From: an uncultured Desulfovibrio sp.
GTDB taxonomy: Bacteria; Desulfobacterota; Desulfovibrionia; Desulfovibrionales; Desulfovibrionaceae
Assembly (NCBI GenBank): GCA_947038175.1
Contig: CAMQVJ010000009.1
Location: 1 to 51,324, forward strand
Length of the DNA stretch: 51,324 bases
Direction: 5' to 3'
A model generated the notes under the pieces. That model did no database searches. It saw only the letters and a list, made by a program, of their open reading frames with translations, and was not told the DNA's origin. This document shows, in pieces, positions 8,385 to 30,970 of the stretch. Made by a program: the position numbers and the translations under genes. Every line of letters starts with the position of its first letter. Position 1 is the stretch's first letter.

Positions 8385-8770
8385 GGGGGCGCATTGGCTT
8401 CGACGTGGACGAAGAAGCCAAGGTTGCAGGTCGAGGCGCCGCTGGCCTCGTAAAAAGCGGCAACAATGTAATTGCAAACAATAACGATTACGCTTACTCT
8501 TACGCTGCTTAATTGACGCGATAGAGTAAACACTGATCTCCTCGGAGGTCACGTCTAACCGGTAGATGCCTAATATATCGGTGCGGCGCAAAATTATTGG
8601 GCTGGCAGTACTTTTTGTCTTACGGGAGTGCTGTGAGAACTTACATAGGGCTAACTAAACACAACCTGTTCAAGGGTCAAGTGTTTGGTGATATTATACT
8701 TGAACTAAACCTGTAGAAGCTTTGTGTGGACCGTTTGCGGACGGGGGTTCAATTCCCCCCGCCTCCACCA
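8385..8770 (+). ncRNA. ssrA: Transfer-messenger RNA (tmRNA)
   Basis: The 5' end GGGGGCG pairs with CGCCTCC before the 3' terminal ACCA (CCA encoded at 8768-8770). The D-loop-like start GCATTGGCTTCGACGTGG and the T-arm GGGGGTTCAATTCCCCC are standard. The tag reading frame runs from GCA at 8474 to TAA at 8510-8512 and encodes ANNNDYAYSYAA, close to the tags known from Desulfovibrio. tmRNA rescues stalled ribosomes and tags the product for proteolysis. Its 3' end is the integration site of the mobile element that follows. Confidence 0.96.
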
Positions 8771-8878
8771 TCTAGTGATTCAATGAGAGTCAAAGAAATT
8801 CAAAATACCCATGATAGTCAAGCTATTATGGGTATTTTTTTGTCCTTTTTCGTCCTATAAAATCCGCCTAGGTTCGGT
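8748..8878 (+). repeat. Left attachment-site repeat (attL) including the ssrA 3' end
   Basis: These 131 bases recur at 30840-30970 with only five substitutions, and the first 46 are identical. The repeat begins inside the T-arm of ssrA (TTCAATTCCCCCCGCCTCC), so the tmRNA stays intact after integration. This is the classical arrangement for tyrosine integrases that use tRNA or tmRNA ends. It also carries the ssrA terminator. Confidence 0.9.
8806..8842 (+). terminator. Terminator of ssrA
   Basis: AATACCCATGATAG pairs imperfectly with CTATTATGGGTATT around TCAAG, followed by a run of seven T. The same hairpin, with compensatory-looking changes in the stem, is present in the right repeat at 30898-30935. 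Confidence 0.8.
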
Positions 8879-9014: not shown

Positions 9015-10211
9015 ATGAGACTTACTACAGTAATGGTTAAAGATTTAGCGATTAAGGAAAAACGCTATTTAGTGTCAGATGAAAATGGGCTGTGTCTTGA
9101 AGTTATGCCCTCAGGTAAAAAGATATGGCGATATAGATACTCGTTCACCTATAAAGAGTATAGAATGCTTATAGGTTCATTTCCTGAAATAAGTATTGCC
9201 GAAGCTCGAAAGAAACGAGATGAATTGAGAGTTTATGTGGCTAAAGGCATAAACCCAGCAGAAAAGAAAAAAGAAGAAAAAGCGCTAACCGATGGAAAAT
9301 ATCATTTTGAAAAAATTGCAAGAGAATGGGTACAAAAGTTTTCAATCAAGTGGAGTCAAGGGCACGCTGAACTTACTCTAACACGTCTTGAGCAAAACAT
9401 ATTTCCTTACCTTGGCAAAGAACCAATTAGCCAAATTACAGCACCCAAATTGCTAGAAGTGTTAAGATTGATTGAAAAGCGTGGGGCTCTTGAAACGGCA
9501 AAGCGTGTGCGTGGAATATGCTCAATGGTGTTTCGATATGCAATTGCTTCGGGATTAGCAGAACGAGATCCCGCTATAGATTTACAAGGAGCACTCACGC
9601 CACCACCTAAAAAGCATTTTGCAACCATCACCGACCCCAAAAAGGTAGGGCAACTTCTTCGAGATATGGAAAATTGCAAAGCATATTTTCCCGTTCATTG
9701 TGCATTGCAATTAGCCCCCCTCTTTTTTGTTCGTCCAGGGGAATTACGTCATGCAGAATGGGAAGAATTTGACTTTGATAAAAAAGAATGGCGCATTCCT
9801 GCCCATAAAATGAAAATGCGAACAACGCACATTGTGCCATTATCAAGCCAAGCTATTGCAATCCTAAACACACTCAAACCGCTCACAGGTGTTGGACAAT
9901 ATGTTTTTCCTTCGGTTCGCACACAAAGCCGTCCCATGTCAGAAAACACCATCACGGTAGCCCTGAGACGCATTGGTTATGCACAAGGGGAAATGACAGG
10001 GCATGGCTTCCGCTCAATGGCTTCTACCTTACTAAATGAACAAGGCTGGAATAGAGACGCCATCGAACGCCAACTAGGGCACTCTGAACGTGACAGCGTT
10101 AGAGCTGCTTATAACTATGCAGAATTTTTGCCCGAACGTAGAGAGATGATGCAAGCATGGGCAGATTATTTGGAAAATCTAAAGAACCCTAAACATGAAT
10201 TGGAGGAATAA
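9015..10211 (+). CDS. Tyrosine-type site-specific integrase
   Basis: A 398-residue phage-P4-like integrase. The N-terminal DUF4102-type DNA-binding segment (KEKRYLVSDENGLCLEVMPSGKKIWRYRYSF...ISIAEARKKRDE) is followed by a core-binding SAM-like domain and the catalytic domain. The catalytic residues are visible as Arg in FFVRPGELRHAEW, His-x-x-Arg in TGHGFRSMAST, His in LGHSERDSVRAAYN and the nucleophilic Tyr in that last segment. It begins 137 bp from attL and reads away from ssrA, as usual for islands integrated at tmRNA. Its C-terminal tail sequence recurs in pieces at 10915-10970, 29148-29271 and (an internal part) at 32127-32190. Confidence 0.95.
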   Translation: MRLTTVMVKDLAIKEKRYLVSDENGLCLEVMPSGKKIWRYRYSFTYKEYRMLIGSFPEISIAEARKKRDELRVYVAKGINPAEKKKEEKALTDGKYHFEKIAREWVQKFSIKWSQGHAELTLTRLEQNIFPYLGKEPISQITAPKLLEVLRLIEKRGALETAKRVRGICSMVFRYAIASGLAERDPAIDLQGALTPPPKKHFATITDPKKVGQLLRDMENCKAYFPVHCALQLAPLFFVRPGELRHAEWEEFDFDKKEWRIPAHKMKMRTTHIVPLSSQAIAILNTLKPLTGVGQYVFPSVRTQSRPMSENTITVALRRIGYAQGEMTGHGFRSMASTLLNEQGWNRDAIERQLGHSERDSVRAAYNYAEFLPERREMMQAWADYLENLKNPKHELEE

Positions 10212-11905: not shown

Positions 11906-12130
11906 ATGTCTCAAAAAATTCAAAAAGAAAAAGGCAGTTTACCACAAGAAGGTTTTGTCAGATTACCACAAGTGCTTGCGGTGATTCCAGTTAGCAAGAC
12001 TCGATTTTGGCAAGGGATAAAAGATGGACGCTTTCCGGCACCTGTAAAACTTGGCACGAGAACAAGTGCATGGCGTGTAGAGGATATTAGAGCCCTCATA
12101 GCAAAGATTAATGCAGGAGAGTTAATATGA
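11906..12130 (+). CDS. AlpA-family DNA-binding regulator
   Basis: A 74-residue protein of the AlpA/excisionase winged-helix type. Its signature is VRLPQVLAVIPVSKTRFWQGIKDGRFPAPVKLGTRTSAWRVEDIRALI. Such proteins control excision or replication genes of P4-like elements. AAGGAGGGACT is a strong ribosome binding site. Its stop overlaps the ATG of the RepA-like gene (ATGA), so the two are translationally coupled. Confidence 0.9.
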   Translation: MSQKIQKEKGSLPQEGFVRLPQVLAVIPVSKTRFWQGIKDGRFPAPVKLGTRTSAWRVEDIRALIAKINAGELI

Positions 12131-13089
12131 ATAGCTCTCAAGGGCAAAATCAAAATACACTTGGAGCAATGCATCAGGCAAGGCTTTCTCAATTAATACC
12201 AGAACTGGTGGTGATTAACATGGCGGATTTTTTATCGATGGAATTGCCCGAGCGTGGGTTTTTATTACATCCTGTTATCCCAACGCAGGGAATTGTTATT
12301 TTGTATGCTCCAAGAGGGATTGGCAAAACCTTTGCGGCGTTAAGTATGTCTTTAGCGGTTGCAGGCGGTTTGTCGCTTTATAATTGGAGAGCGAGCAAAG
12401 GGAATAAGGTTCTGTATGTTGACGGTGAAATGCCTGCAATCGCTATGCAAGAACGTCTAAACGCTCTTGCTTGTGGAATGGCTGCACCCGAGCTTGCCAT
12501 GCAAAACCTATCCATACTCACCCCAGATATGCAGGCACGTTCTATGCCCGATTTATCGACCACGGATGGGCAAAGAAGCCTTGAGCCATTTCTTGATGGG
12601 GTAAACTTACTTGTGCTTGATAATATAGCAACCCTTTGCAGGACAGGTAAGGAGAACGAATCTCAATCGTGGCAATCTATGCAGAGTTGGCTTTTAGACC
12701 TTCGTAGACGAGGTATGGCGGTTCTGCTTGTGCATCACGCAGGGAAATCAGGCGATCAGAGGGGCACGTCCGCACGGGAAGATATTATGGATACTGTAAT
12801 CAGTTTACGTCGTCCAAAGATTTATAGTATGGCAGAAGGAGCACGCTTTCAAGTTCATCTCACAAAAGCACGAGGCATCACGGGCAAAGATGCTTCACCT
12901 TTTGAGGTTCACTTACAGGCAAAAGATAATCTCTTGCATTGGGATATTTTGGAAATAGCAGAAGCGGAAATGGAACAAGTTAAGAAGCTACTCGAAGAGG
13001 GATATAGCGTCCGAGAATGTGCCGAAGAAATGGGCATCTCAAAATCGAGCGCCCATCGATTTAAACAGCGAATAGAAGAAAATGGCTAG
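12127..13089 (+). CDS. RepA-like AAA ATPase (replicative helicase type)
   Basis: A 320-residue RecA-fold ATPase of the AAA_25/RepA group seen on plasmids and mobilizable islands. Walker A is APRGIGKT (about residues 61-68). The conserved strand KVLYVDGEMP follows, Walker B is LLVLDNIATL, and VLLVHHAGKSGDQRGTSAREDIMDTVI matches the RSF1010 RepA-type C-half. The last 30 residues form a helix-turn-helix (VRECAEEMGISKSSAHRFKQRI). It overlaps alpA and is followed at once by iteron-like repeats, which supports a role in replicating the excised element. Confidence 0.88.
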   Translation: MNSSQGQNQNTLGAMHQARLSQLIPELVVINMADFLSMELPERGFLLHPVIPTQGIVILYAPRGIGKTFAALSMSLAVAGGLSLYNWRASKGNKVLYVDGEMPAIAMQERLNALACGMAAPELAMQNLSILTPDMQARSMPDLSTTDGQRSLEPFLDGVNLLVLDNIATLCRTGKENESQSWQSMQSWLLDLRRRGMAVLLVHHAGKSGDQRGTSAREDIMDTVISLRRPKIYSMAEGARFQVHLTKARGITGKDASPFEVHLQAKDNLLHWDILEIAEAEMEQVKKLLEEGYSVRECAEEMGISKSSAHRFKQRIEENG

Positions 13090-13334: not shown

Positions 13335-13460
13335 GCCATGTTTTCGCTTCACTCAAACTGCTCGCTCCCCGCACTTTGTTTGGGGAGATTATGGAAAAAA
13401 CCAAATGGTATCGACTGCACAAGTGGTCTCACATTTAAAGAATTTAAACTCCAAAAAAGA
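13335..13460 (+). other. Possible oriT region upstream of mobC
   Basis: This non-coding stretch lies just before the mobilization genes. It contains an inverted repeat CTCCCC/GGGGAG (about 13365-13391) with an 11-base centre, then a stretch with few repeats. oriT regions normally sit here. No nic site can be named from sequence alone. Confidence 0.3.
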
Positions 13461-13472
13461 GGAGATGCGTTT

Positions 13473-13940
13473 ATGGATTTACTAGAAAATACACAGCATC
13501 AAAATATAGAATCAGAAACACCAGAAAGACGAAAAAGGCATAGAAAAGGAGGACGCCCTTGCACCGATATTTTACAGGTACGCCATAAAACCATAGGCGT
13601 TCGAGTTAACCAAGGCGAATGGGAAGAACTACGAAGAAAAGCAAATGCCATGCATCTTACGCCCTCCCATTGGCTTCGCTTGACAGGTTTGCAAAAGCGT
13701 TTGCCACCCGCTCCAGTGCCAGCAATAAACCGCCTTGCATACGCAAACTTATTGCGCTTATCGGTCAATCTTAACCAGTTGGTGAAAAACGTGCATATGG
13801 GAAAATCAGATGCTCCCATGCCTTTTTTATTGGAGCTAAAACAATCCGTATCAACGGTTCAAAATCAGCTCATGGGTTTAGGTGATGCCGTTGCTATCGA
13901 TATTGCAAAGGACAATAAGACAGCTCCCCATGATAGCTAA
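13473..13940 (+). CDS. MobC-like relaxosome accessory protein
   Basis: A 156-residue basic protein of the plasmid mobilization MobC type. An Arg/Lys-rich N-terminus (ERRKRHRKGGRP) precedes a ribbon-helix-helix-like segment (KTIGVRVNQGEWEELRRKANAMHLTPSHWLRLTGL). The helical region INRLAYANLLRLSVNLNQLVKNVH is the family hallmark. GAGGAG lies about 10 bases before ATG 13473, so the longer frame from 13338 is rejected. It overlaps the relaxase start by 11 bases. Confidence 0.82.
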   Translation: MDLLENTQHQNIESETPERRKRHRKGGRPCTDILQVRHKTIGVRVNQGEWEELRRKANAMHLTPSHWLRLTGLQKRLPPAPVPAINRLAYANLLRLSVNLNQLVKNVHMGKSDAPMPFLLELKQSVSTVQNQLMGLGDAVAIDIAKDNKTAPHDS

Positions 13941-14970
13941 AGCCATAAAAGGCAAAGGCTTTCGAGGTGCGATAGCCTATGACTTGCAAGAAGGTAAAAG
14001 CGTTTTACTTGAAACTAACATGGCAGCAGGCGAAAAGGGATGCGTGCAAGCTTTTTCAAAAGAATTTGGTGTAGTCCGTGCATTGCGTCCTAATTTGGAA
14101 AAAGCCGTTTGCCATGTGAGTTTAAGCTTGCACCCAAATGAAAAGTTGAACGATGACGACTGGTGCAAGGTTGCTCAAACGTGGCTAGAGGATATGGGAT
14201 ATAACAATAATCAATATATTGTGAGTCGCCATACAGACACCGAACACCCCCATATTCATATTTTGGTAAATCGTATTTCCCTTGATGGTTCTGTCGTGAG
14301 CGATTCTTATGACTACAAACGGCAAGAGGTGGTCATGCGAAAACTGGAAAAAGAACATGGACTGGTGCAAGTGCTGTCTAGCCATGAGGTTGGGCGAAAA
14401 GCCACAACAAAAGGCGAAGTAGAACACGCCTTACGCACCAATGAGCCTTCAGCACGAATGAAATTGCAAAATATTATAGACACAGCCCTTGCCCGTAATG
14501 CAAACACAAGCTTTCATGAATTTGCAGAAAATTTGCTAGTACAAGGGGTGGAAACAAAACTCAATAAAGCCAGTACAGAAACGGTGAGCGGGATTAGTTT
14601 TTCTTTGAATGGGGTTTCTTTCAAAGGGAGCAAACTTGGCAAAGCCTACACTTGGAACTCATTAAAAAATAGAGGTCTAATATATGAAAATGGACATATT
14701 ACGAGATATGAGCAGAACAAATCAAACACCAACAAAGAACAGTCAAACACAGAATACACAAATGGAGAACAACCAAATGCAATCACAAGCACCACTCAGC
14801 GAACAGGAAACCTTGGAAATGCGCCTTTCCCTTTTGAATCAACAAGAAAACCTGAAGCTGAAAAACAACGCCGAATTACTGAAAGCTTTGAGCGACTTGA
14901 ACAAGAACATCAAAGAAGCGAGCAAAGAAGTACAGAGAAGCGCCCACGAAGTCCGCAATTATCCCGTTGA
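13930..14970 (+). CDS. MobA/VirD2-type relaxase
   Basis: A relaxase of about 346 residues that would nick oriT and lead the strand during mobilization. From ATG 13930, the probable catalytic tyrosine is Tyr17 (GFRGAIAYDLQ). The metal-binding histidine cluster is HTDTEHPHIHILVNR at residues 101-115. A domain continues to about residue 255 (GVSFKGSKLGKAYTWNSLKNRG) and is followed by a Gln/Asn/Glu-rich polar tail. No primase domain is attached. The 3' third of the gene overlaps the mobB-like gene in another frame. Confidence 0.9.
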   Translation: MIAKAIKGKGFRGAIAYDLQEGKSVLLETNMAAGEKGCVQAFSKEFGVVRALRPNLEKAVCHVSLSLHPNEKLNDDDWCKVAQTWLEDMGYNNNQYIVSRHTDTEHPHIHILVNRISLDGSVVSDSYDYKRQEVVMRKLEKEHGLVQVLSSHEVGRKATTKGEVEHALRTNEPSARMKLQNIIDTALARNANTSFHEFAENLLVQGVETKLNKASTETVSGISFSLNGVSFKGSKLGKAYTWNSLKNRGLIYENGHITRYEQNKSNTNKEQSNTEYTNGEQPNAITSTTQRTGNLGNAPFPFESTRKPEAEKQRRITESFERLEQEHQRSEQRSTEKRPRSPQLSR

Positions 14971-15692: not shown

Positions 15693-16013
15693 ATGCAAAA
15701 TTCACCATTCAGTTTAAGTAATGAGAACTTAGAAGGAACTATAATTGCTAGCAAAGCTTCTTTTGAAGAGGAGGCGGTGCGTACAGCCTTAGGCAAATAT
15801 ACTCCTAATTATTATATTTCTTTTGTTCCCTGCAATGAATCAGATCTAAAAATTACGATTTCATGTAAAAAGTCAAATTCTCTACACATAAATTTTCTAA
15901 AAGAAATAATGAATGAATTGTTAGACCAACAAATTCGTCTAGATTTGCAAAATAAATTTGGCCATTTACGAGAATCTATTGTTAAGCATGCTTTTGAGCC
16001 TGTAAGATTATAG
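15693..16013 (+). CDS. hxsD: His-Xaa-Ser system protein HxsD
   Basis: A 106-residue partner protein of the His-Xaa-Ser peptide-modification system. Its size, its first position in the operon, and its C-terminal pattern (LLDQQIRLDLQNKFGHLRESIVKHAFEPV) match HxsD. It precedes the two radical SAM genes by 7 bp, the order D-B-C-A known for this system. Its role is not established; a peptide-recognition or scaffold role for the maturases is an inference. Confidence 0.82.
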   Translation: MQNSPFSLSNENLEGTIIASKASFEEEAVRTALGKYTPNYYISFVPCNESDLKITISCKKSNSLHINFLKEIMNELLDQQIRLDLQNKFGHLRESIVKHAFEPVRL

Positions 16014-16020
16014 GACTGTT

Positions 16021-17478
16021 ATGTATACCTTATTACCTTTTCAGTTTGCACGACATGGGCAAGATGTTCTTTTAGTTAATGAGTGTGGAGACTTTCTCTT
16101 TTTATCTGAGATAGATTTTGACAATCTTATCCAGTACAAACTAAGTGAAGATACCCCTGTCTTTCCAAATTTAAAGGCTAAATTATTCTTAGCTCAAGGC
16201 AATGAAGATATTGCCATACGCAAAACATCTGCAAAGTATCGTTCTCGCAAGTCTTTTTTGCGAGATTTCACAGTTTTGCATATGATGGTTATAACATTGC
16301 GCTGCAACCAAAAGTGCGAATATTGTCAGGTTTCTTGTGCTGATGAAGACTCCCATAAATATGACATGGATATACGCACAGCCCAAAAAGTAATTGACAG
16401 AATCCTTGAGTCGCCTCCCAAAAACATAAAGATAGAATTTCAAGGTGGAGAACCATTACTAAACTGGAAAACATTGGAACACAGTGTCCTTTACGCCAAA
16501 AACAAAAACACCACACTCGATAAAAGCAAGCAAAAGGAAATAGGGTTTGTTATTTGCACAAACCTCATCACTATTACCAAAGAACAATTACTTTTTTGCA
16601 AAGAACATGGCATTGAAATTTCAACGTCCCTCGATGGCACAGAGTTTATACACGATTCTTGCCGAAAATTACGCACAGGTGGTGGCACATATAAGCTGTT
16701 CTTAGAGAAATTAGAGCTCACCCGATCAATTGTTGGTGAGTGTGGCGTTGATGCCCTAATGACCACTTCAAGCTTTGCGTTAGAACACCTTGAAGAGGTT
16801 GTTGATGAATACATACGGCTTGGTATGAACGGGATATTTATACGCTCGCTCAATCCTTATGGTTTTGCTGCTGAACATGCGCAAACCTTGGATTATAGTA
16901 TGAAGGACTTTGCCACACGCTACCTTGAAACGTTGAGATATATTCTTGAAATAAATAAAAAGCAATTTTTCCCTGAACATTTTGCTAGTCTTCTTTTTTC
17001 ACGCATATTAACACCGTTCTCTACGGGCTTTGTTGATTTGCAATCTCCATCAGGAGCAGGGATTTCTGGTGCCATTTATGACTTTGACGGTTCAGTATTC
17101 CCAGCTGATGAGGCAAGAATGCTAGCACGTATGGGAGATAATCATTTTTGTTTAGGAAATGTTCACGAGCAAAGTTTTAGTGAAATTTTTAATAGTCAAA
17201 AAATGAGAGATTTAACCAAGGGAGCGTGTGTTGAAACCACACCAACGTGCGCATATTGCGCATACCAATCGTACTGTGGCACTGACCCCATTCGTAATTA
17301 TTTAGAATGTGGGCAAGAGGTGCGTAATATGTCTGAAACAGCCTTTTGTATAAAGCATAAAACCATATTTGATGAACTTTTCACGATGCTCAAGGTCGCT
17401 AGCGAATCAGACATGGCGATTATCTGGAGTTGGATAACACGCAATTCTCATTTGGTGAAATATCATGAAGAAAATTAG
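16021..17478 (+). CDS. hxsB: His-Xaa-Ser system radical SAM/SPASM maturase HxsB
   Basis: A 485-residue radical SAM enzyme predicted to modify the His-Xaa-Ser repeat peptide encoded downstream. The AdoMet cluster motif is Cys95-x3-Cys99-x2-Cys102 (RCNQKCEYCQ). The GGEP motif reads FQGGEPLLNW. A SPASM domain with extra Cys ligands occupies the C-terminal part (TPTCAYCAYQSYCGTDP...FCIKH), for auxiliary 4Fe-4S clusters. AGGA lies about 7 bases before the ATG. The gene overlaps hxsC by 14 bases. Confidence 0.9.
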   Translation: MYTLLPFQFARHGQDVLLVNECGDFLFLSEIDFDNLIQYKLSEDTPVFPNLKAKLFLAQGNEDIAIRKTSAKYRSRKSFLRDFTVLHMMVITLRCNQKCEYCQVSCADEDSHKYDMDIRTAQKVIDRILESPPKNIKIEFQGGEPLLNWKTLEHSVLYAKNKNTTLDKSKQKEIGFVICTNLITITKEQLLFCKEHGIEISTSLDGTEFIHDSCRKLRTGGGTYKLFLEKLELTRSIVGECGVDALMTTSSFALEHLEEVVDEYIRLGMNGIFIRSLNPYGFAAEHAQTLDYSMKDFATRYLETLRYILEINKKQFFPEHFASLLFSRILTPFSTGFVDLQSPSGAGISGAIYDFDGSVFPADEARMLARMGDNHFCLGNVHEQSFSEIFNSQKMRDLTKGACVETTPTCAYCAYQSYCGTDPIRNYLECGQEVRNMSETAFCIKHKTIFDELFTMLKVASESDMAIIWSWITRNSHLVKYHEEN

Positions 17479-18622
17479 ATATACAAATCAAGACACATCT
17501 AAATTAAGTAGTGTGAATACAGTTCTTGGGATTATAACGAGAACATCACAACCATTTTATAAGCGCAGTAAATATATACTCATCACCAACACACCAAGTT
17601 TAGATTGTATGGGATATAAAGCATGTATAGGGCTTGGAACAAGCAATAATCCCCTTTTGCCCATATTTATTAATATAGAAGAAAGCGAATTGAACAGCCT
17701 TGTTGACGGCGATATTATTCGCTTAGGTAAAAATAGCTTGCGCACCGTTTGGTCACTGACTACCAACGATAACGCCCTCATGCTTACAGAGTCGTGTAAT
17801 TGCAAATGTGTTATGTGCCCACAGCCGTATAGGGAACATGACCCTCAACAATCAAAAGAATGCCATGAGATTCTAGACCTTTTAAAAGGACAAAGCGTAG
17901 GTAGTATATGTATTACGGGTGGGGAACCTAGTCTTTTGAAAAAAGATTTTCTCAATATACTAAAGCGTTGTACACAGGAACACCCAGAAAGTGATATTAG
18001 TATTCTAACAAATGGAAAAACATTTTCTGACATAGGTTATGCGAAGCAAACAGCGCAAGTCTCCAATAGAAAAACCATTTTTTGCGTGTCTTTACACAGT
18101 GATGTGGATAATATTCATGACGCAACCGCTGGCGGAAAGAATAGCCATTCAGCAACGGAAAATGGCATATATAATCTTGCGCAATTTGGATTAAATGTTG
18201 AAATTAGGCATGTCATTACAAAATATAATTATAAGCGATTGGGCGACTTTGCAGAGTATCTATATAGTTATTTCCCCTTCTGTAGACATTACGCCTTTAT
18301 GGGGATGGAATTATACGGGTACGCCGCAAAAAATGAAGAAGAAATATACATAAGCCCTTATGAGTATAGAGAAGAATTGCGTCATGCTATTACAAAACTT
18401 TATCATCGAGGTTTGCCAGTTTCTATTTATAATATTCCTTTCTGCTTGTGCCATAAAGATATACACGATTTTGCACGCCAATCAATTTCACAATGGAAAA
18501 ATACATTTTTAGAAACTTGTACTATTTGTGAAGAAAAACCGAACTGCGCAGGATTTTTTGCCACGTCAAAAAGCTTGCCAGTGGAATATATTCAACCTTT
18601 AACCGAAAAGAGGAGTAAATGA
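17465..18622 (+). CDS. hxsC: His-Xaa-Ser system radical SAM maturase HxsC
   Basis: A 385-residue second radical SAM protein of the system. An N-terminal domain of about 105 residues precedes the cluster motif Cys111-x3-Cys115-x2-Cys118 (SCNCKCVMCPQP). ICITGGEPSLL is the GGEP motif. The C-terminal CTICEEKPNCAGFF resembles a short auxiliary-cluster site. It overlaps hxsB at its start and the precursor gene at its end (4 bases), so translation is coupled along the operon. Confidence 0.88.
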   Translation: MKKIRYTNQDTSKLSSVNTVLGIITRTSQPFYKRSKYILITNTPSLDCMGYKACIGLGTSNNPLLPIFINIEESELNSLVDGDIIRLGKNSLRTVWSLTTNDNALMLTESCNCKCVMCPQPYREHDPQQSKECHEILDLLKGQSVGSICITGGEPSLLKKDFLNILKRCTQEHPESDISILTNGKTFSDIGYAKQTAQVSNRKTIFCVSLHSDVDNIHDATAGGKNSHSATENGIYNLAQFGLNVEIRHVITKYNYKRLGDFAEYLYSYFPFCRHYAFMGMELYGYAAKNEEEIYISPYEYREELRHAITKLYHRGLPVSIYNIPFCLCHKDIHDFARQSISQWKNTFLETCTICEEKPNCAGFFATSKSLPVEYIQPLTEKRSK

Positions 18623-18891
18623 TTATGAGAAAACTCATCTATTGTTTATTTATGTTAGCAGGTTTTATACCTTCTATTCTGTCGAATTCCGCACAAGCAA
18701 GTGTGGCACTCCCATCAGAAAAACTAGATGCATCTAATCCGTCTGAATTACAAATTAATGAAAACAATTTCATGTATTTTGGAGACATCTTAGACAATCA
18801 AGAAAATAGTAACTTTGTAGCCGCTCACTATAGCCACCGTAGCCACAGCAGTCATGTTAGTCACGCTAGTCACACATCTAGCAGATACTAA
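18619..18891 (+). CDS. hxsA: His-Xaa-Ser repeat precursor peptide (HxsA-type)
   Basis: A 90-residue secreted precursor. A signal peptide (RKLIYCLFMLAGFIPSILSNSAQA, probable cleavage after AQA) is followed by a polar linker. The C-terminus has six consecutive His-x-Ser triplets (HYS-HRS-HSS-HVS-HAS-HTS, coded at 18826-18879) and ends in SRY. The two upstream maturases are expected to act on these triplets. GAGGAG lies 5 bases before ATG 18619 and 11 before the ATG two codons later. It is much shorter than the founding HxsA proteins, so it is better seen as one of the short HxsA variants. Confidence 0.88.
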   Translation: MIMRKLIYCLFMLAGFIPSILSNSAQASVALPSEKLDASNPSELQINENNFMYFGDILDNQENSNFVAAHYSHRSHSSHVSHASHTSSRY

Positions 18892-18898
18892 ATCGATT

Positions 18899-18949
18899 AT
18901 GTGCACACAGTCTCACAAGAGTCTATGATTCGTGCCACTGTGTGCACAT
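18899..18949 (+). repeat. Perfect 13-bp inverted repeat after the precursor gene
   Basis: ATGTGCACACAGT (18899-18911) and ACTGTGTGCACAT (18937-18949) are exact inverted copies around 25 bases, starting 7 bases after the hxsA stop. No T-run follows. It could be an RNA stem that protects or attenuates the operon message, or a paired operator. Confidence 0.7.
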
Positions 18950-19242
18950 CTCTGAATGATAAAGAAAATTTATACTACTATCAGAAAAGCATAGTGTATC
19001 TAGTGCCTATAATCAAAAAAATAAGTAAACAATCACAGAGCTACTTGATTCAAAACAAGAAAAATACTGGTTGGTTACAAACTCACCGCTGTCATATCAA
19101 AATTTATACGCATCAAGCATGCTCTTATTATGATATAATACAATATTATGAATATTTTTTTAAGGCAGAAGAAATTCCAATTTATATGGAAATAGGCAAC
19201 ACAAAATACCTTGCAGAAAGGCATGGCTTGAATATAAATTGA
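18901..19242 (+). CDS. Hypothetical protein downstream of the Hxs operon
   Basis: An open frame of up to 113 residues that I do not recognise. The GTG at 18901 lies inside the inverted repeat and has no ribosome binding site. ATG 18925 is an alternative start. The body has a Tyr-rich composition with a regular ending (GWLQTHRCHIKIYTHQACSYYDIIQYYEYFF...IPIYMEIGNTKYLAERHG), which looks like real protein. Position and strand suggest a fifth member of the Hxs operon, but nothing in the sequence proves it. Confidence 0.5.
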   Translation: MHTVSQESMIRATVCTSLNDKENLYYYQKSIVYLVPIIKKISKQSQSYLIQNKKNTGWLQTHRCHIKIYTHQACSYYDIIQYYEYFFKAEEIPIYMEIGNTKYLAERHGLNIN

Positions 19243-19374
19243 TCAGCATGGGAACATGTCCTCAAGCTTCAAAGCGGAAAGAACTTATATAAGTACGTGT
19301 AAGCCCAGCAGGAATGAGCGCTATAAAGTATTTATATCATATAATATTAATAAAGAATTATCGATAAACAAACA

Positions 19375-20463
19375 TTATTCCCCATCCCTATTCCAAATAT
19401 ATTGCGTATAACGCCCCCCACCAATTTTGACGATGCGTTTGTTTTTTATAAGGTCGTTTAATGTTCTTTGGACAGTTACCAAGCTAATGTCGGGGCATTT
19501 TTCTGCAATTTGAGTTTTGCTTATTTTACCTAGTGAGCTTTGTATAATTTCTGCCACTCTATCAGACTTAGACATATTTCTTGTAATCAACACATCAATA
19601 CGGCTTTGAAATTCACGATAGGCATTAATAATGATACCAAGCATATATTGTATAAATGGTTCATAACTGTTTTTGTTTTCATGCCAGTGGGTGCTACTAT
19701 GCTGTAGTGCTTCGTAATATGTTTCTTTTGTTTGCTCTATAATTTTTTCGATACTCATATACTTCCCAACAATATACCCTGCACGGTAGAGCAGAAGCAG
19801 GGTGAGTAGTCGGCTCATGCGTCCGTTTCCATCATTGAATGGGTGTATGCACAAAAAATCTAAAATAAACATGGGAATTATAATAAGTGGGCTTGCCTTG
19901 CCTTCGCTCATGATGTCGTCATACGCTTTGCACAGGTTTTCTACAGCTTCCTTAGTCTCCCATGCTGTAACTGGTTGAAATCGAACAACTTTGTTACCGT
20001 GCTTATCGATTTCAGCAATAATATTATCAGCATTCTTATAATTTCCGCCTATTGGCAGGCTCGTGTATTTATATAAATCTCTGTGAAGCTGTAAAATCCA
20101 AGAAGCTTTTACGGGAATATATTCGTGGCTGTCATGTATGGTTGCAAGGGCATCACGGTAGCCTGCGATTTCTTGCTCGTCACGAGATTGTGGCATCGTT
20201 TTGTCAAGGGCAATGAGCTTGAGGCGTTCGTCAGAGGTGTAAATGCCCTCAATCTTGTTTGATGCTTCCGTACTCTGGATTTTTGCAATCTCAACTAAAC
20301 TTGTGAGAATGTCCGTTTTTGAGTCCATGAATAAAAACTGATTGCCCTTGTATTCATGTATTTGCACCATCGAGGCTACAATCTCAGGCGTGAGAAGTTC
20401 TTTCCACCGTGGGGTATAATCATAGTTTTTCATTTTAATCATTGCCTCTTTCAATTTAATCAT
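19375..20463 (-). CDS. Fic-family protein (probable AMPylator) with C-terminal winged helix
   Basis: A 362-residue Fic protein. The N-terminal helix contains SNKIEG, which fits the self-inhibitory (S/T)xxxE(G/N) motif. The active-site loop is HPFNDGNGRMSR, with the catalytic His and the phosphate-binding residues intact. The last 60 residues form a winged-helix-like domain (KISKTQIAEKCPDISLVTVQRTLNDLIKNKRIVKIGGGRYTQYIW). Such proteins transfer AMP from ATP to target hydroxyls. The first ATG has weak ribosome binding, and ATGs at 20442 and 20433 are alternatives. It is divergent from the ATPase-subtilase pair over about 150 bp. Confidence 0.88.
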   Translation of the reverse strand: MIKLKEAMIKMKNYDYTPRWKELLTPEIVASMVQIHEYKGNQFLFMDSKTDILTSLVEIAKIQSTEASNKIEGIYTSDERLKLIALDKTMPQSRDEQEIAGYRDALATIHDSHEYIPVKASWILQLHRDLYKYTSLPIGGNYKNADNIIAEIDKHGNKVVRFQPVTAWETKEAVENLCKAYDDIMSEGKASPLIIIPMFILDFLCIHPFNDGNGRMSRLLTLLLLYRAGYIVGKYMSIEKIIEQTKETYYEALQHSSTHWHENKNSYEPFIQYMLGIIINAYREFQSRIDVLITRNMSKSDRVAEIIQSSLGKISKTQIAEKCPDISLVTVQRTLNDLIKNKRIVKIGGGRYTQYIWNRDGE

Positions 20464-20616: not shown

Positions 20617-21666
20617 ATGAAAAAGAAAAATGTACTAAATTTAATAAAATACCACGCAGAAAATAATGACAGTGCCTTCAAAAGTGAAGCGTATGAGATT
20701 GCACGTTATTTTGATGAGACAGGCAACTACCAATTAGCTGAATATATTATGTCTCTGCTTTCTGATGCGAATACATTTGTGCCTCAAATAAATGACAGCT
20801 ATTCATCTTTCTTTAAAAAAGTTGATAATAATTCTGATCCATTACCGCTTCCAGACGTAATAAAAGATGATATTGTAGGCATCGTAAATGCTATTTCTAA
20901 GAATATAGGAACACATAAATTTCTATTTGAGGGAGCTCCTGGTACAGGAAAGACAGAAACAGTAAAACAATTAGCACGAATTTTGGAACGTGAACTTTTT
21001 ATAATAGAATTTGAATCACTTATAGATAGTAAATTGGGAAAAACAGCAAAGAATATAGCAGCCTTGTTTGAGGAAATTCACCAGATTCCACATCCACAGA
21101 AAATAATTATTTTGTTCGATGAAATTGATGCAATAGCTGTTGATAGAATAAATTCAAATGATTTGCGTGAAATGGGAAGAGCGACGTCGGCTATATTAAA
21201 GGGATTAGATAGCCTCAATGATAAAATTGTTCTTATTGCGACAACAAATTTATTTAACGCTTTTGATAAAGCATTGGTGAGAAGGTTTGACTTTGTCATT
21301 AATTTTAATAGGTATACTCAGGAAGATTTAGTGGACATTGCTGAATCAATCTTAAATAATTTCTTGATGAAATATAAAACTGGCGCACGGAATATGAGAT
21401 TGTTTAGAAAAATCATTAAACTTATGGAAGTTATCCCAAATCCAGGGGAACTTAAAAATATCATAAAAACCTCTATCGCTTTTAGTGATTCAGCTAATGA
21501 ATATGATTACCTAAGGAAATTAATGACAGCCATCGGGCAAGATTCGAGCATAACAAACTTGAAAGAGCTGCAGCACAGAGGATTTACTTTGAGAGAAATA
21601 GAAACGCTGACAGGTGTGTCTAAGAGCCAAGTGTCACGTGAATTGAAGGGAGAGCAAGATGAATAA
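20617..21666 (+). CDS. AAA ATPase partner of a subtilase (antiphage type)
   Basis: A 349-residue AAA+ ATPase. Walker A is GAPGTGKT (residues 106-113), Walker B is ILFDEID (165-171), and the sensor is IATTN with RRFDF as arginine finger. The N-terminal 80 residues are helical. The C-terminus is a helix-turn-helix (LREIETLTGVSKSQVSRELKG). It overlaps the subtilase start by 8 bases. Paired AAA ATPase and S8 peptidase genes are reported as a phage-defence unit. I recall the names IteA and IteS for this pair but cannot check that here, so no symbol is assigned. Confidence 0.85.
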   Translation: MKKKNVLNLIKYHAENNDSAFKSEAYEIARYFDETGNYQLAEYIMSLLSDANTFVPQINDSYSSFFKKVDNNSDPLPLPDVIKDDIVGIVNAISKNIGTHKFLFEGAPGTGKTETVKQLARILERELFIIEFESLIDSKLGKTAKNIAALFEEIHQIPHPQKIIILFDEIDAIAVDRINSNDLREMGRATSAILKGLDSLNDKIVLIATTNLFNAFDKALVRRFDFVINFNRYTQEDLVDIAESILNNFLMKYKTGARNMRLFRKIIKLMEVIPNPGELKNIIKTSIAFSDSANEYDYLRKLMTAIGQDSSITNLKELQHRGFTLREIETLTGVSKSQVSRELKGEQDE

Positions 21667-23905
21667 TCTTTTACAATTGAAAGGAACATTTGAACAAAAA
21701 GCGAACAAATCCACGCCTGGTAGCTCAAATTTACCTACCAATAGTTCCTTGTCAGTGCTTCACTTAGAACAACTTAAAAAAGATTTAGATGTTCTCTATA
21801 ATTTTTGGGAAAATGATCAAATTCTAAACGGTGCTTTAGTTAGTGTTTATTATAAAAATGTTGTCGCAAAAAGTAGAAGAATTTCAGCTACGTTTGCATG
21901 CGGGAAGGCTACAACTAATAGCACGATAGTTGGAGCCAAATTTTCAAAATTTGGTGATGACGTTTTTAAAAATGATACATTGAAGCATATTATTACTCAT
22001 TATATAAGCAGACAAGTTTTGGCTGAGACGATTAAAAAGTATGAAATATGTATTTCTCTTATAAGAAACCATTATAGTGGCGCGATTAGTCATGATGATA
22101 TTTCCATCATAAATACACAAAAAACTATTCCATCAACAGAAATCGCAAGAACAACATTTATACAAATAATTGTGGATGCATACTATGTTGAACAATTCTC
22201 TCTTGATCTGGAGACCGAAGACTTTAAAAAGAATGCAATTATTTCTATATATAAAACAGATGTCAACACACGGGAGTTGATGAACAAAATTGGTATCCCT
22301 TTACTTGCACCAAGGTTGCTTGATGAAACGACAATGTTGTTGACTCCTGACCAACTTCTCTTGCTAAAACAAAAAGCCCCATACCTCATATCTATGGGTG
22401 TAAGTGATGTATCTCAACTTACAAAATCTGACTTTGATATTCAAATGTCAGAAGATGTCTTGAGAATTCCTAGCCCAACAACGGAACCCACTATTGGCGT
22501 GATTGATACACTTTTTGATGAGCGTGTATATTTTTCAGAATGGGTAACATACAAAGTGATGGTTGATCCGGATATTCCTACGTCAAGCGACGATGCCTTT
22601 CATGGCACGGCTGTTTCATCAATCATCGTGGATGGGGTGAGAAATAACCCTCATTTAGAAGATGGATGTGGACGATTTAGGGTGCGACATTTTGGAGTTG
22701 CAGCTACTGGTTCTTTCAGTTCATTTTCTATTTTACGAGCAATTAATGAAATAATCACAACTAATCGAGATATTAAAGTATGGAATTTATCTTTAGGGGC
22801 GGAATCAGAAGTTCACCCTAACTTTATTTCCCCTGAGGGTGCTATTTTAGATAAAATTCAACACGAAAATGACGTGATTTTTGTTATTGCAGGAACTAAT
22901 AAACGAACCACTGATCCTGAAAAAATGAAAATAGGTTCACCCGCAGACTCCATAAATTCACTCGTGGTAAATGCAGTTAATGATAAAAATGAACCCGCAC
23001 GTTATTCGCGTAGTGGGCCAGTCTTATCTTTTTTTACAAAGCCTGATATTGCATGTTTTGGTGGTGATGGTAAGCAAAGGATTAAGGTTTGCACTCCTAC
23101 AGGTGAAGCATTTGTTAGCGGAACATCTTTTGCTGCACCGTGGGTAGCACGTAAATTGTCTTATTTGATTGATGTGTTGGGATTAAGTCGAGAAATTGCC
23201 AAGGCTCTTATTCTACACTCTGCACTTGGTTGGAGTTCTAAGTCTGAGGAAACTGCCTTGTTGATTGGGCATGGTATCGTTCCTCAGCATATTAATGATA
23301 TTATAAAGTCGTCAGATGACGAAATACGCTTTATATTGTCAGGAGTGTCTGAAAAGCACGATACATATACGTATAACCTGCCCGTCCCTACTTATAATGA
23401 AAAGCATCCATTTATTGCAAAAGCGACAATGTGTTATTTTCCCTCATGTTCACGAAGCCAAGGGGTCGACTATACTAATACAGAATTTAATTTTGCGTTT
23501 GGACGCATTGATAACAATAGTACAATAAAATCGATTAATAGAAACTTGGATTCTAGCACCGCAGGTTATCTTTATGAAGGTAACGCAAGAAGGCTGTTTA
23601 GAAAGTGGGATAATGTTAAACATCTTTTAGAATTCGATTCAGAAAGAAATAAAGCTCGAAAGGCTTACGATAAAGGTCTTTGGGGCATAAGCATCAAAAC
23701 ATTTGAAAGGCTTGAAGAAAAACATGGTGTAGGACTAAACTTTGGACTTGTTATTACACTAAAGCATATAACAGGTGCGAACAAAATCGAAGATTTCATT
23801 CAGCAATGTCAGCTAAAAGGTTGGCTTGTAAATCAAATTAACGTTCAAAATAGAATTGATATTCATAACATTGCAGAAGAAACCATTGAGTTTGATGATA
23901 ACTAG
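21659..23905 (+). CDS. S8-family (subtilisin-like) peptidase, ATPase-coupled
   Basis: A 748-residue cytoplasmic subtilase without signal peptide. The catalytic residues are Asp283 (TIGVIDTLFD), His315 (FHGTAVSSIIVDG), Asn414 as likely oxyanion residue (AGTNKR) and Ser490 (VSGTSFAAPWVA), so the triad is intact. The N-terminal 270 residues and C-terminal 240 residues are specific to this family and could sense a trigger or bind a substrate. It is translationally coupled to the AAA ATPase. A 214-bp spacer separates it from the next gene pair. Confidence 0.88.
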   Translation: MNNLLQLKGTFEQKANKSTPGSSNLPTNSSLSVLHLEQLKKDLDVLYNFWENDQILNGALVSVYYKNVVAKSRRISATFACGKATTNSTIVGAKFSKFGDDVFKNDTLKHIITHYISRQVLAETIKKYEICISLIRNHYSGAISHDDISIINTQKTIPSTEIARTTFIQIIVDAYYVEQFSLDLETEDFKKNAIISIYKTDVNTRELMNKIGIPLLAPRLLDETTMLLTPDQLLLLKQKAPYLISMGVSDVSQLTKSDFDIQMSEDVLRIPSPTTEPTIGVIDTLFDERVYFSEWVTYKVMVDPDIPTSSDDAFHGTAVSSIIVDGVRNNPHLEDGCGRFRVRHFGVAATGSFSSFSILRAINEIITTNRDIKVWNLSLGAESEVHPNFISPEGAILDKIQHENDVIFVIAGTNKRTTDPEKMKIGSPADSINSLVVNAVNDKNEPARYSRSGPVLSFFTKPDIACFGGDGKQRIKVCTPTGEAFVSGTSFAAPWVARKLSYLIDVLGLSREIAKALILHSALGWSSKSEETALLIGHGIVPQHINDIIKSSDDEIRFILSGVSEKHDTYTYNLPVPTYNEKHPFIAKATMCYFPSCSRSQGVDYTNTEFNFAFGRIDNNSTIKSINRNLDSSTAGYLYEGNARRLFRKWDNVKHLLEFDSERNKARKAYDKGLWGISIKTFERLEEKHGVGLNFGLVITLKHITGANKIEDFIQQCQLKGWLVNQINVQNRIDIHNIAEETIEFDDN

Positions 23906-29271: not shown

Positions 29272-29390
29272 TGAATATAATCCTATGCTTTATTTATATA
29301 GCACAGATAAAGATGAAAAAGTAATTTCTCCTGATGATGTTCACACAAAATTTGCTGATATTGAAAAATACATTTAAACTGGAGAAACAG

Positions 29391-30737
29391 ATGAAAACAT
29401 TAGACTTACAACCTACAACAGACAATATAATGAATACGTTTGTTAAAGATATATTAGAACGAAACGATGATATCTATGCTTTTATTGGACTGTTAAATAT
29501 TATCGAACAGAATTACTCTTTAGCTTTAGATGGTGCGTGGGGTTCTGGTAAAACTTTTTTTGTAAATCAAACAGTTATGGTGCTTGATGCTTTATATGGC
29601 AGTACTGGTTCAGAATATCAAAAAAGTTATGAAACAATTTTAGGAAGAGTTCCTAATGAACTAGAACCAAATAACTTTGCTATTTATTTTGACGCATGGG
29701 CTAATGATAATGACGATGACCCACTGCTCTCAATTTTATATACCATTGTAAAAAAATATCGTATGAGTTTTCCAAATGATACTGATTTGGAAAAGGTATT
29801 TTGTGGCGTTGCTGACCTTGTCATTGATAACCCACTCACAGCAGGAGTAACCTTGGGTTTTAATAAAGTTGTAAAGAAAACAGCCAACAAAGTAAGTGAT
29901 ATTTCAAGCAACATTGTTGGGAAAAATATATTAGAAGAATTGGAAAAAGTAAAAAATATTGAGAAACGGATACATGATTTTTTTGAAAAAATACTTGAAA
30001 AAAGAGGCAGTGAACGCATTGTTATCTTTATAGATGAGCTTGATAGATGTAAGCCAAGCTATTCAGTTAAACTACTTGAAAGAATAAAACATTACATGGT
30101 ACATGAAAATATTACCTTTGTTTTCTCTACAAATATTAGCGAACTTTCACATACTATTAGCCACTGTTATGGAACTTGATTTGATGGTTATAAGTATCTT
30201 GAAAAGTTTTTTTCTGAAATATATACATTAGCCGAATTAGAAGGGGAGCAGCTAGAAAAAGTTCTCCAGTTGGACTTAAGAAAATCGTTGCATGATAAAT
30301 TACTGAAACTATTTATTCTCAATAACAATGTTCCCTTACGTACAAGTTTAAAAATAAGTAAAAAGATTAAACAATTTACTCCTATTATTTCGGAAAAAGA
30401 TTTAAACTTTGATGGCTATCGTTCCTTTAGAGGGTTTGCACAATACCTTTTTATTCCTTATTTAATTTGTCTTAAACTGCATAATAATGTAAGTTATAAT
30501 GAGTTTATACAAGGAAATGACGCAGGACAACTCTCTTTTTTGCTCGAAGTAATGAAAGGTACATATTTACATGAATCATTCTATCAAAACAGCAACTATG
30601 AAGCTACAGAAGAAAATAATAGGGAACATTTAGAGCAGCTGTATAAAAACATTTTTTCTCGTGCTATAATCGGGGAAAATATAGAGTTAGTTGCTGTTCC
30701 AAATAATGCAAAACAACAGATACTAAAAAGGCTATAA
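29391..30737 (+). pseudogene. KAP-family P-loop NTPase interrupted by an in-frame TGA
   Basis: The first part (from ATG 29391 with GGAG upstream) has the KAP hallmarks: Walker A GAWGSGKT at residues 48-55 and the Walker B region RIVIFIDELDRCKPSYSVKLLERIKHY. A TGA at 30177-30179 stops it within a conserved KAP segment: CYGT, stop, FDGYKYLEKFF. The same frame then continues without other stops to 30737. A normal KAP protein would have an amino acid (usually Gly) at the stop. Either the gene is newly inactivated or the base is an assembly error. KAP NTPases are often membrane-linked and occur in phage-defence and plasmid contexts. Confidence 0.85.
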
Positions 30738-30839: not shown

Positions 30840-30970
30840 TTCAATTCCCCCCGCCTCCACCATCTAGTGATTCAATGAGAGTCAAGGAAATTCAAAATAC
30901 CCATGATAGCCAAGCTGTTATGGGTATTTTTTTGTCCTTTTTCGTCCTATATAATCCGACTAGGTTCGGT
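30840..30970 (+). repeat. Right attachment-site repeat (attR)
   Basis: The 131-bp partner of 8748-8878, with five substitutions. It contains the last bases of an ssrA 3' end (TTCAATTCCCCCCGCCTCC ACCA) without the rest of the tmRNA, plus the terminator hairpin (30898-30935). Three of the five differences fall in or next to the hairpin. It defines the right end of the 22-kb element. Confidence 0.9.

Follow-up and report, generated by a model that had tools for sequence, protein, structure and literature searches.

Background

The His-Xaa-Ser (HxS; hxs) system, credited to Haft and Basu (cited in PMC9062424), is represented by the protein families TIGR03976, TIGR03977, TIGR03978 and TIGR03979. 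The hxsDBCA operon considered here lies in a stretch of 51,324 nucleotides from an uncultured Desulfovibrio sp. (contig CAMQVJ010000009.1 of assembly GCA_947038175.1, analysed whole and called the window below), and is a normal member of that system, sharing with it the four gene families, a precursor with tandem HxS triplets, a tightly packed gene arrangement and a mobile context. It differs in that its HxsA is short, lacks the peptidoglycan-binding half, and falls below the cut-offs of both TIGR03979 and the HxsA2 family. We think it quite likely that the operon is a minimal and apparently intact one, carried on an element of about 22 kb at ssrA, in which the radical S-adenosylmethionine (SAM) enzymes HxsB and HxsC would act together with HxsD on the tail of a Sec-exported HxsA, and that no fifth gene belongs to it.

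Two other described groups invite comparison. HxsA2 (NF038296) is likewise a short, exported-looking precursor with terminal tandem HxS triplets; the window protein scores 35.0 bits against it, under the cut-off of 48, and the window order D-B-C-A contrasts with that in two annotated plasmids, where the A2 gene comes first. Other radical SAM/SPASM enzymes form links between residues i and i+2, joining His C2 to the Cbeta of Ala or Arg, or Phe to the Cbeta of Ser (reviewed in PMC11002830). These triceptide, or three-residue cyclophane, enzymes (MscB, HaaB and YhhB; PMC11002830) resemble the hxs maturases in being radical SAM/SPASM proteins that act on an aromatic residue and its i+2 partner, with His and Ser each known separately as participants; HxsB and HxsC fall in other NCBIfam families, however, and an HxS cross-link is suggested by analogy only.

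A complete four-gene operon

The original prediction of a complete four-gene operon is confirmed by a profile scan of the window proteins, in which HxsD, HxsB and HxsC all exceed curated NCBIfam cut-offs (scores and coordinates in Table 1) and are joined by an adjacent, exported-looking open reading frame (ORF) of 88-90 residues with six HxS triplets, exactly the count first given. Tight translational coupling is also a fair description: hxsD and hxsB are separated by 7 nt, hxsB and hxsC overlap by 14 nt, and hxsC and hxsA overlap by 4 nt if hxsA begins at 18619. All four frames are open, with cofactor cysteines intact and the gene overlaps kept. The same D-B-C-A order with a short, HxS-tailed precursor recurs across dozens of loci in many phyla.

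Two start codons deserve comment. The hxsD frame opens at ATG 15675, and its start is placed at ATG 15693 because a GAGGT site precedes that codon. For hxsA, ATG 18625 (88 residues, MRKLIY...) is the more likely start rather than 18619, judging from the better spacing of an AGGAG site and from relatives that open with MRxxIY (MRKIIY, MRTLIY and others).

A short precursor of the common kind

The six triplets of HxsA (HYS, HRS, HSS, HVS, HAS and HTS) stand in tandem within HYSHRSHSSHVSHASHTS, and the N-terminus, MRKLIYCLFMLAGF...SAQASVA, looks by eye like a Sec signal, as it does in relatives. The small size of this precursor had been taken as a departure from the long founding HxsA. That view did not survive a length survey of 80 named loci from many phyla, together with relatives drawn from whole genomes, since the short form is found in most operons surveyed. 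Among 100 distinct HxS-rich ORFs, whose starts were set mechanically so that some lengths are inflated, the last HxS triplet lies within 12 residues of the end in 83, and a tail of more than 60 residues follows it in 16. When ten long HxsA proteins were tested, eight carried PG_binding_1 in the C-terminal tail, after the HxS region. The long founding-type protein is thus usually a short precursor with an added peptidoglycan-binding domain; since the short form is the majority, length does not set the window protein apart. This architecture points to the cell envelope and may help with the question of what hxs systems do.

Predicted enzymes and helper

HxsB has the CxxxCxxC motif and C-terminal cysteines of a radical SAM/SPASM protein, with a Pfam SPASM match (PF13186); C95, C99 and C102 of the radical SAM site and C410, C413, C419 and C443 of the SPASM region are invariant among eight relatives. 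Among solved structures it lies nearest to the SCIFF maturase 5wgg and to anaerobic sulfatase maturases. In HxsC, C111, C115 and C118 are invariant across 73 sequences, as are four additional cysteines (C327, C352, C355 and C361) that we read as a putative auxiliary cluster site. The predicted HxsC fold (predicted local distance difference test, pLDDT, 94.7) is similar to the viperin and SkfB barrels. Identity as a viperin was rejected, as the likeness is at the level of fold (Z 21), scores against viperin models are low (38.7 bits against a cut-off of 180 for NF038283, and 28.2 against 450 for TIGR04278), and the protein matches the HxsC model instead.

HxsD is predicted by AlphaFold2, with good confidence (pLDDT 88), to have element order b-b-a-b-b-a with a long C-terminal helix that carries its conserved DQQxR and IxxxAF residues. 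The top Foldseek matches, to Rpb11/RPAC2-type subunits, are weak (E 1.9e-3, TM 0.54); they suggest that HxsD could have a role in dimerisation or docking. A second structural alignment returned mixed folds with middling scores (Z under 7). Direct cooperation of HxsD and HxsB is supported by a fusion of the two in locus L062.

Proposed action of the system

In the favoured scheme, the 88-residue HxsA would be made in the cytoplasm, where SPASM-type HxsB and HxsC, a radical SAM protein with four extra invariant cysteines, would modify its tandem His-Xaa-Ser tail with the help of HxsD. Export through the Sec-type signal sequence would follow modification, and the mature product of about 60 residues would be kept in the cell envelope or released; the system would be complete without a fifth gene. 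Two features support an envelope location: the signal-peptide-like N-terminus and the PG_binding_1 domain of long HxsA relatives. The original prediction also raised a role in competition or surface function; no result obtained here speaks for competition. As to chemistry, we guess by analogy at a three-residue cyclophane in which His (i) is cross-linked to Ser (i+2), since the spacing of these residues in the triplet equals that of such cyclophanes.

Several points weigh against this picture. The signal peptide was called by eye. The window HxsA is under every curated HxsA cut-off, though its matches are clear: it reaches 40.8 bits against TIGR03979 (HxsA sensu stricto), where the cut-off is 121.65, and aligns with positions 5-75 of the 190 in that profile, so its naming depends on operon position and motif. 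No report of HxS modification was found in the open literature searched. The order of elements in HxsD differs from what we take to be the order in the PqqD-type peptide-recognition domain, and no PqqD-type chain is present among the best 50 Foldseek matches.

It is also conceivable that HxsA, being rich in His, is exported without modification and binds metal, while HxsB and HxsC target something else. Histidine at every third residue would be expected on general grounds to bind Zn, Cu or Ni, and the lack of any report of modification in the literature searched is consistent with such a role. Against it, many phyla have kept a pair of radical SAM enzymes, their clusters conserved, beside HxS proteins, and each of the two enzymes has a peptide maturase among its relatives (the SCIFF maturase 5wgg for HxsB, SkfB for HxsC). 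We therefore regard an unmodified HxsA as unlikely and modification of the tail by HxsB and HxsC as the better account. For the system at large, the locus offers little beyond one further member, and taken by itself it brings the nature of the hxs product no closer.

The region after hxsA

The original prediction proposed that a Tyr-rich frame directly after hxsA (18901-19242) might be a new component of the system. The frame is on the same strand, 9 nt past hxsA, and its stop-free run of 116 codons within a 483-bp stretch is somewhat above chance (p = 0.0045 against Markov sequences built from the region's own dinucleotides). A lineage-restricted fifth gene, encoding an immunity, export or protease partner, would fit those two observations. 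The comparative evidence runs strongly the other way. Protein searches found no relative in 247 genomes of the same family, in plasmids, in phages (one chance match, E 0.3), in viral contigs or among ORFs at 90 further hxs loci, and five congeners yielded a single match at 27% identity (E 0.008). The DNA itself (18892-19374) is not conserved, with one 36-bp match in 149 family genomes, and matches to Pfam and NCBIfam families are weak and far under cut-off. Third-codon-position GC content is unlike that of the hxs genes, no obvious ribosome site lies upstream, and the GTG start falls within the arm of an RNA hairpin. Lack of conservation beside any hxs operon, which the original prediction named as its own refutation, is what was found in the 90 other loci and the 247 family genomes. 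A real fifth gene here is very unlikely, and the proposal was rejected. The Tyr-rich label is accurate, although an AT-rich sequence yields Tyr, Ile and Lys codons in any case.

The hairpin has arms at 18899-18916 and 18932-18949 and a predicted folding energy of -27.6 kcal/mol (z -3.68). It shows weak self-matches in its own genome and belongs to no repeat family there. It may serve to terminate or to protect the hxs transcript. Identification as an intrinsic terminator was rejected: there is no T-run, and a terminator scan did not report it.

A mobilizable element at ssrA

That the operon is cargo of a mobilizable element is upheld by an integrase, a relaxase and exact 46-bp repeats at ssrA (Table 1). 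The repeats, which place the size of the element at about 22.1 kb, extend beyond their exact core to a total of 131 bp, over which they are about 95% identical. No conjugation-apparatus (type IV secretion) family was matched among the scanned proteins between them; an integrase, repeats at the tmRNA site and a relaxase without conjugation apparatus among those proteins together identify an integrative mobilizable element. Its genes run in the order ATPase, MobC-like protein, relaxase, hxsDBCA, Fic, IetA/IetS, PIN-TPR-GreABC protein and KAP NTPase.

Table 1. Features of the hxsDBCA operon and its element in the window, with DUF5334 genes beside hxs operons elsewhere
Feature	Position	Strand	Evidence or remark
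Left attachment repeat, ssrA 3' end	8748..8793	+	46-bp exact repeat of 30840-30885
Tyrosine integrase	9015..10211	+	Pfam Phage_integrase, Phage_int_M, Arm-DNA-bind_3; adjoins tmRNA 8385-8770
AAA_25 (RepA-like) ATPase, element backbone	12127..13089	+	Pfam PF13481
NikA/MobC-like mobilization protein	13338..13940	+	Pfam PF21983
MobB-type relaxase	13882..14970	+	Pfam Relaxase 1.8e-33; NCBIfam matches of MobB and MobP type fall under the cut-off
hxsD, small partner protein, 106 aa	15693..16013	+	NCBIfam TIGR03976 56.5 bits (cut-off 50); GAGGT upstream of ATG 15693; AlphaFold2 pLDDT 88
hxsB, radical SAM/SPASM maturase (predicted), 485 aa	16021..17478	+	TIGR03978 546.7 bits (cut-off 370)
hxsC, second radical SAM maturase (predicted), 385 aa	17465..18622	+	TIGR03977 315.7 bits (cut-off 267.9)
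hxsA, short precursor, 88 aa (90 aa from first ATG 18619)	18625..18891	+	HxsA and HxsA2 matches below cut-off; architecture as in relatives
Inverted repeat / RNA hairpin directly after hxsA	18899..18949	+	18-nt arms 89% complementary; no T-run
113-codon open frame put forward as a fifth gene, in all likelihood not one	18901..19242	+	No relative, no family match, no obvious ribosome site
Right attachment repeat	30840..30885	+	46-bp exact copy of 8748-8793
DUF5334 neighbours of hxs in other loci	L053 5033-5299; L108 1655-1918; L159 7588-7866; L163 8230-8433

Congeners illustrate how such an element varies. Two of them (L180 and L182) have the same backbone at ssrA, with identities of 75-76% for the integrase, 78-80% for the ATPase, 42-48% for MobC and 63-72% for the relaxase; in a third, no integrase directly follows ssrA. 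In one backbone-sharing congener (L184, 1748-8438), what look by eye like a toxin-antitoxin pair and a gene for a DNA methylase stand in place of the hxs and defence genes, and this sister-element stretch ends at a site like the tmRNA end. hxsB was found in none of the five congeners. Because congeners share the backbone without hxsB, the operon is best seen as occupying a variable cargo slot of this ssrA element family.

Many other hxs loci are also mobile. Plasmid records with hxs number 396, of which 311 are from Klebsiella, and two phage records, including a Leptospira phage, also carry it. Gene lists for Pseudomonas integrating conjugative elements include hxs genes (PMC8446631).

The operon might also be a passenger in decay that is intact by chance. 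Several hxsB homologues in genomes of the same family contain internal stops, hxsB is missing from the five congeners, and foreign genes lie within the locus in two relatives: in L143 (6638-10648) a pair of genes on the opposite strand, resembling an IS21-type element, interrupts hxsB, and in L152 (7243-8048) a shortened hxsB is separated from hxsC by a transposase-like ORF. The four open frames, intact cofactor cysteines and preserved overlaps of the window operon speak against decay, which we consider improbable for this copy.

Neighbouring genes

Apart from D, B, C and A themselves, clustering of neighbours across 91 hxs loci revealed no partner common to most of them. Some genes do recur. 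In eight distinct loci (L008, L013, L014, L048, L052, L055, L058 and L153), proteins of the staphylococcal nuclease (SNase) type are encoded no more than 2.3 kb from hxs, with no match beyond that distance in the flanks of up to 8 kb of the loci searched. EndA-type endonucleases adjoin hxs in two loci (L010/L137 and L138), and small, exported-looking DUF5334 proteins do so in three loci and an Aeromonas plasmid. The nuclease and DUF5334 profiles were seeded from hxs-adjacent genes and used without an outside control, which makes the association a lead. None of the three types is present in the window's hxs operon.

These recurring exported nucleases and DUF5334 proteins are testable partners, distinct from the proposed fifth gene. 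One speculative reading, to which we give little credence, is that the hxs product could be an envelope-located modified peptide working with exported nucleases, for example on surface DNA, and travelling in a defence-type cargo slot.

In the window, the operon is followed on the opposite strand by a SoFic-like Fic protein (19375-20463). Farther downstream in the same element is an IetA/IetS-like pair (20617-23905), an AAA ATPase and a subtilisin of a known anti-phage defence type. The element also encodes a large PIN-TPR-GreABC-domain protein and, near its right end, a KAP-family NTPase (29334-30179) resembling the candidate defence family PDC-S20.

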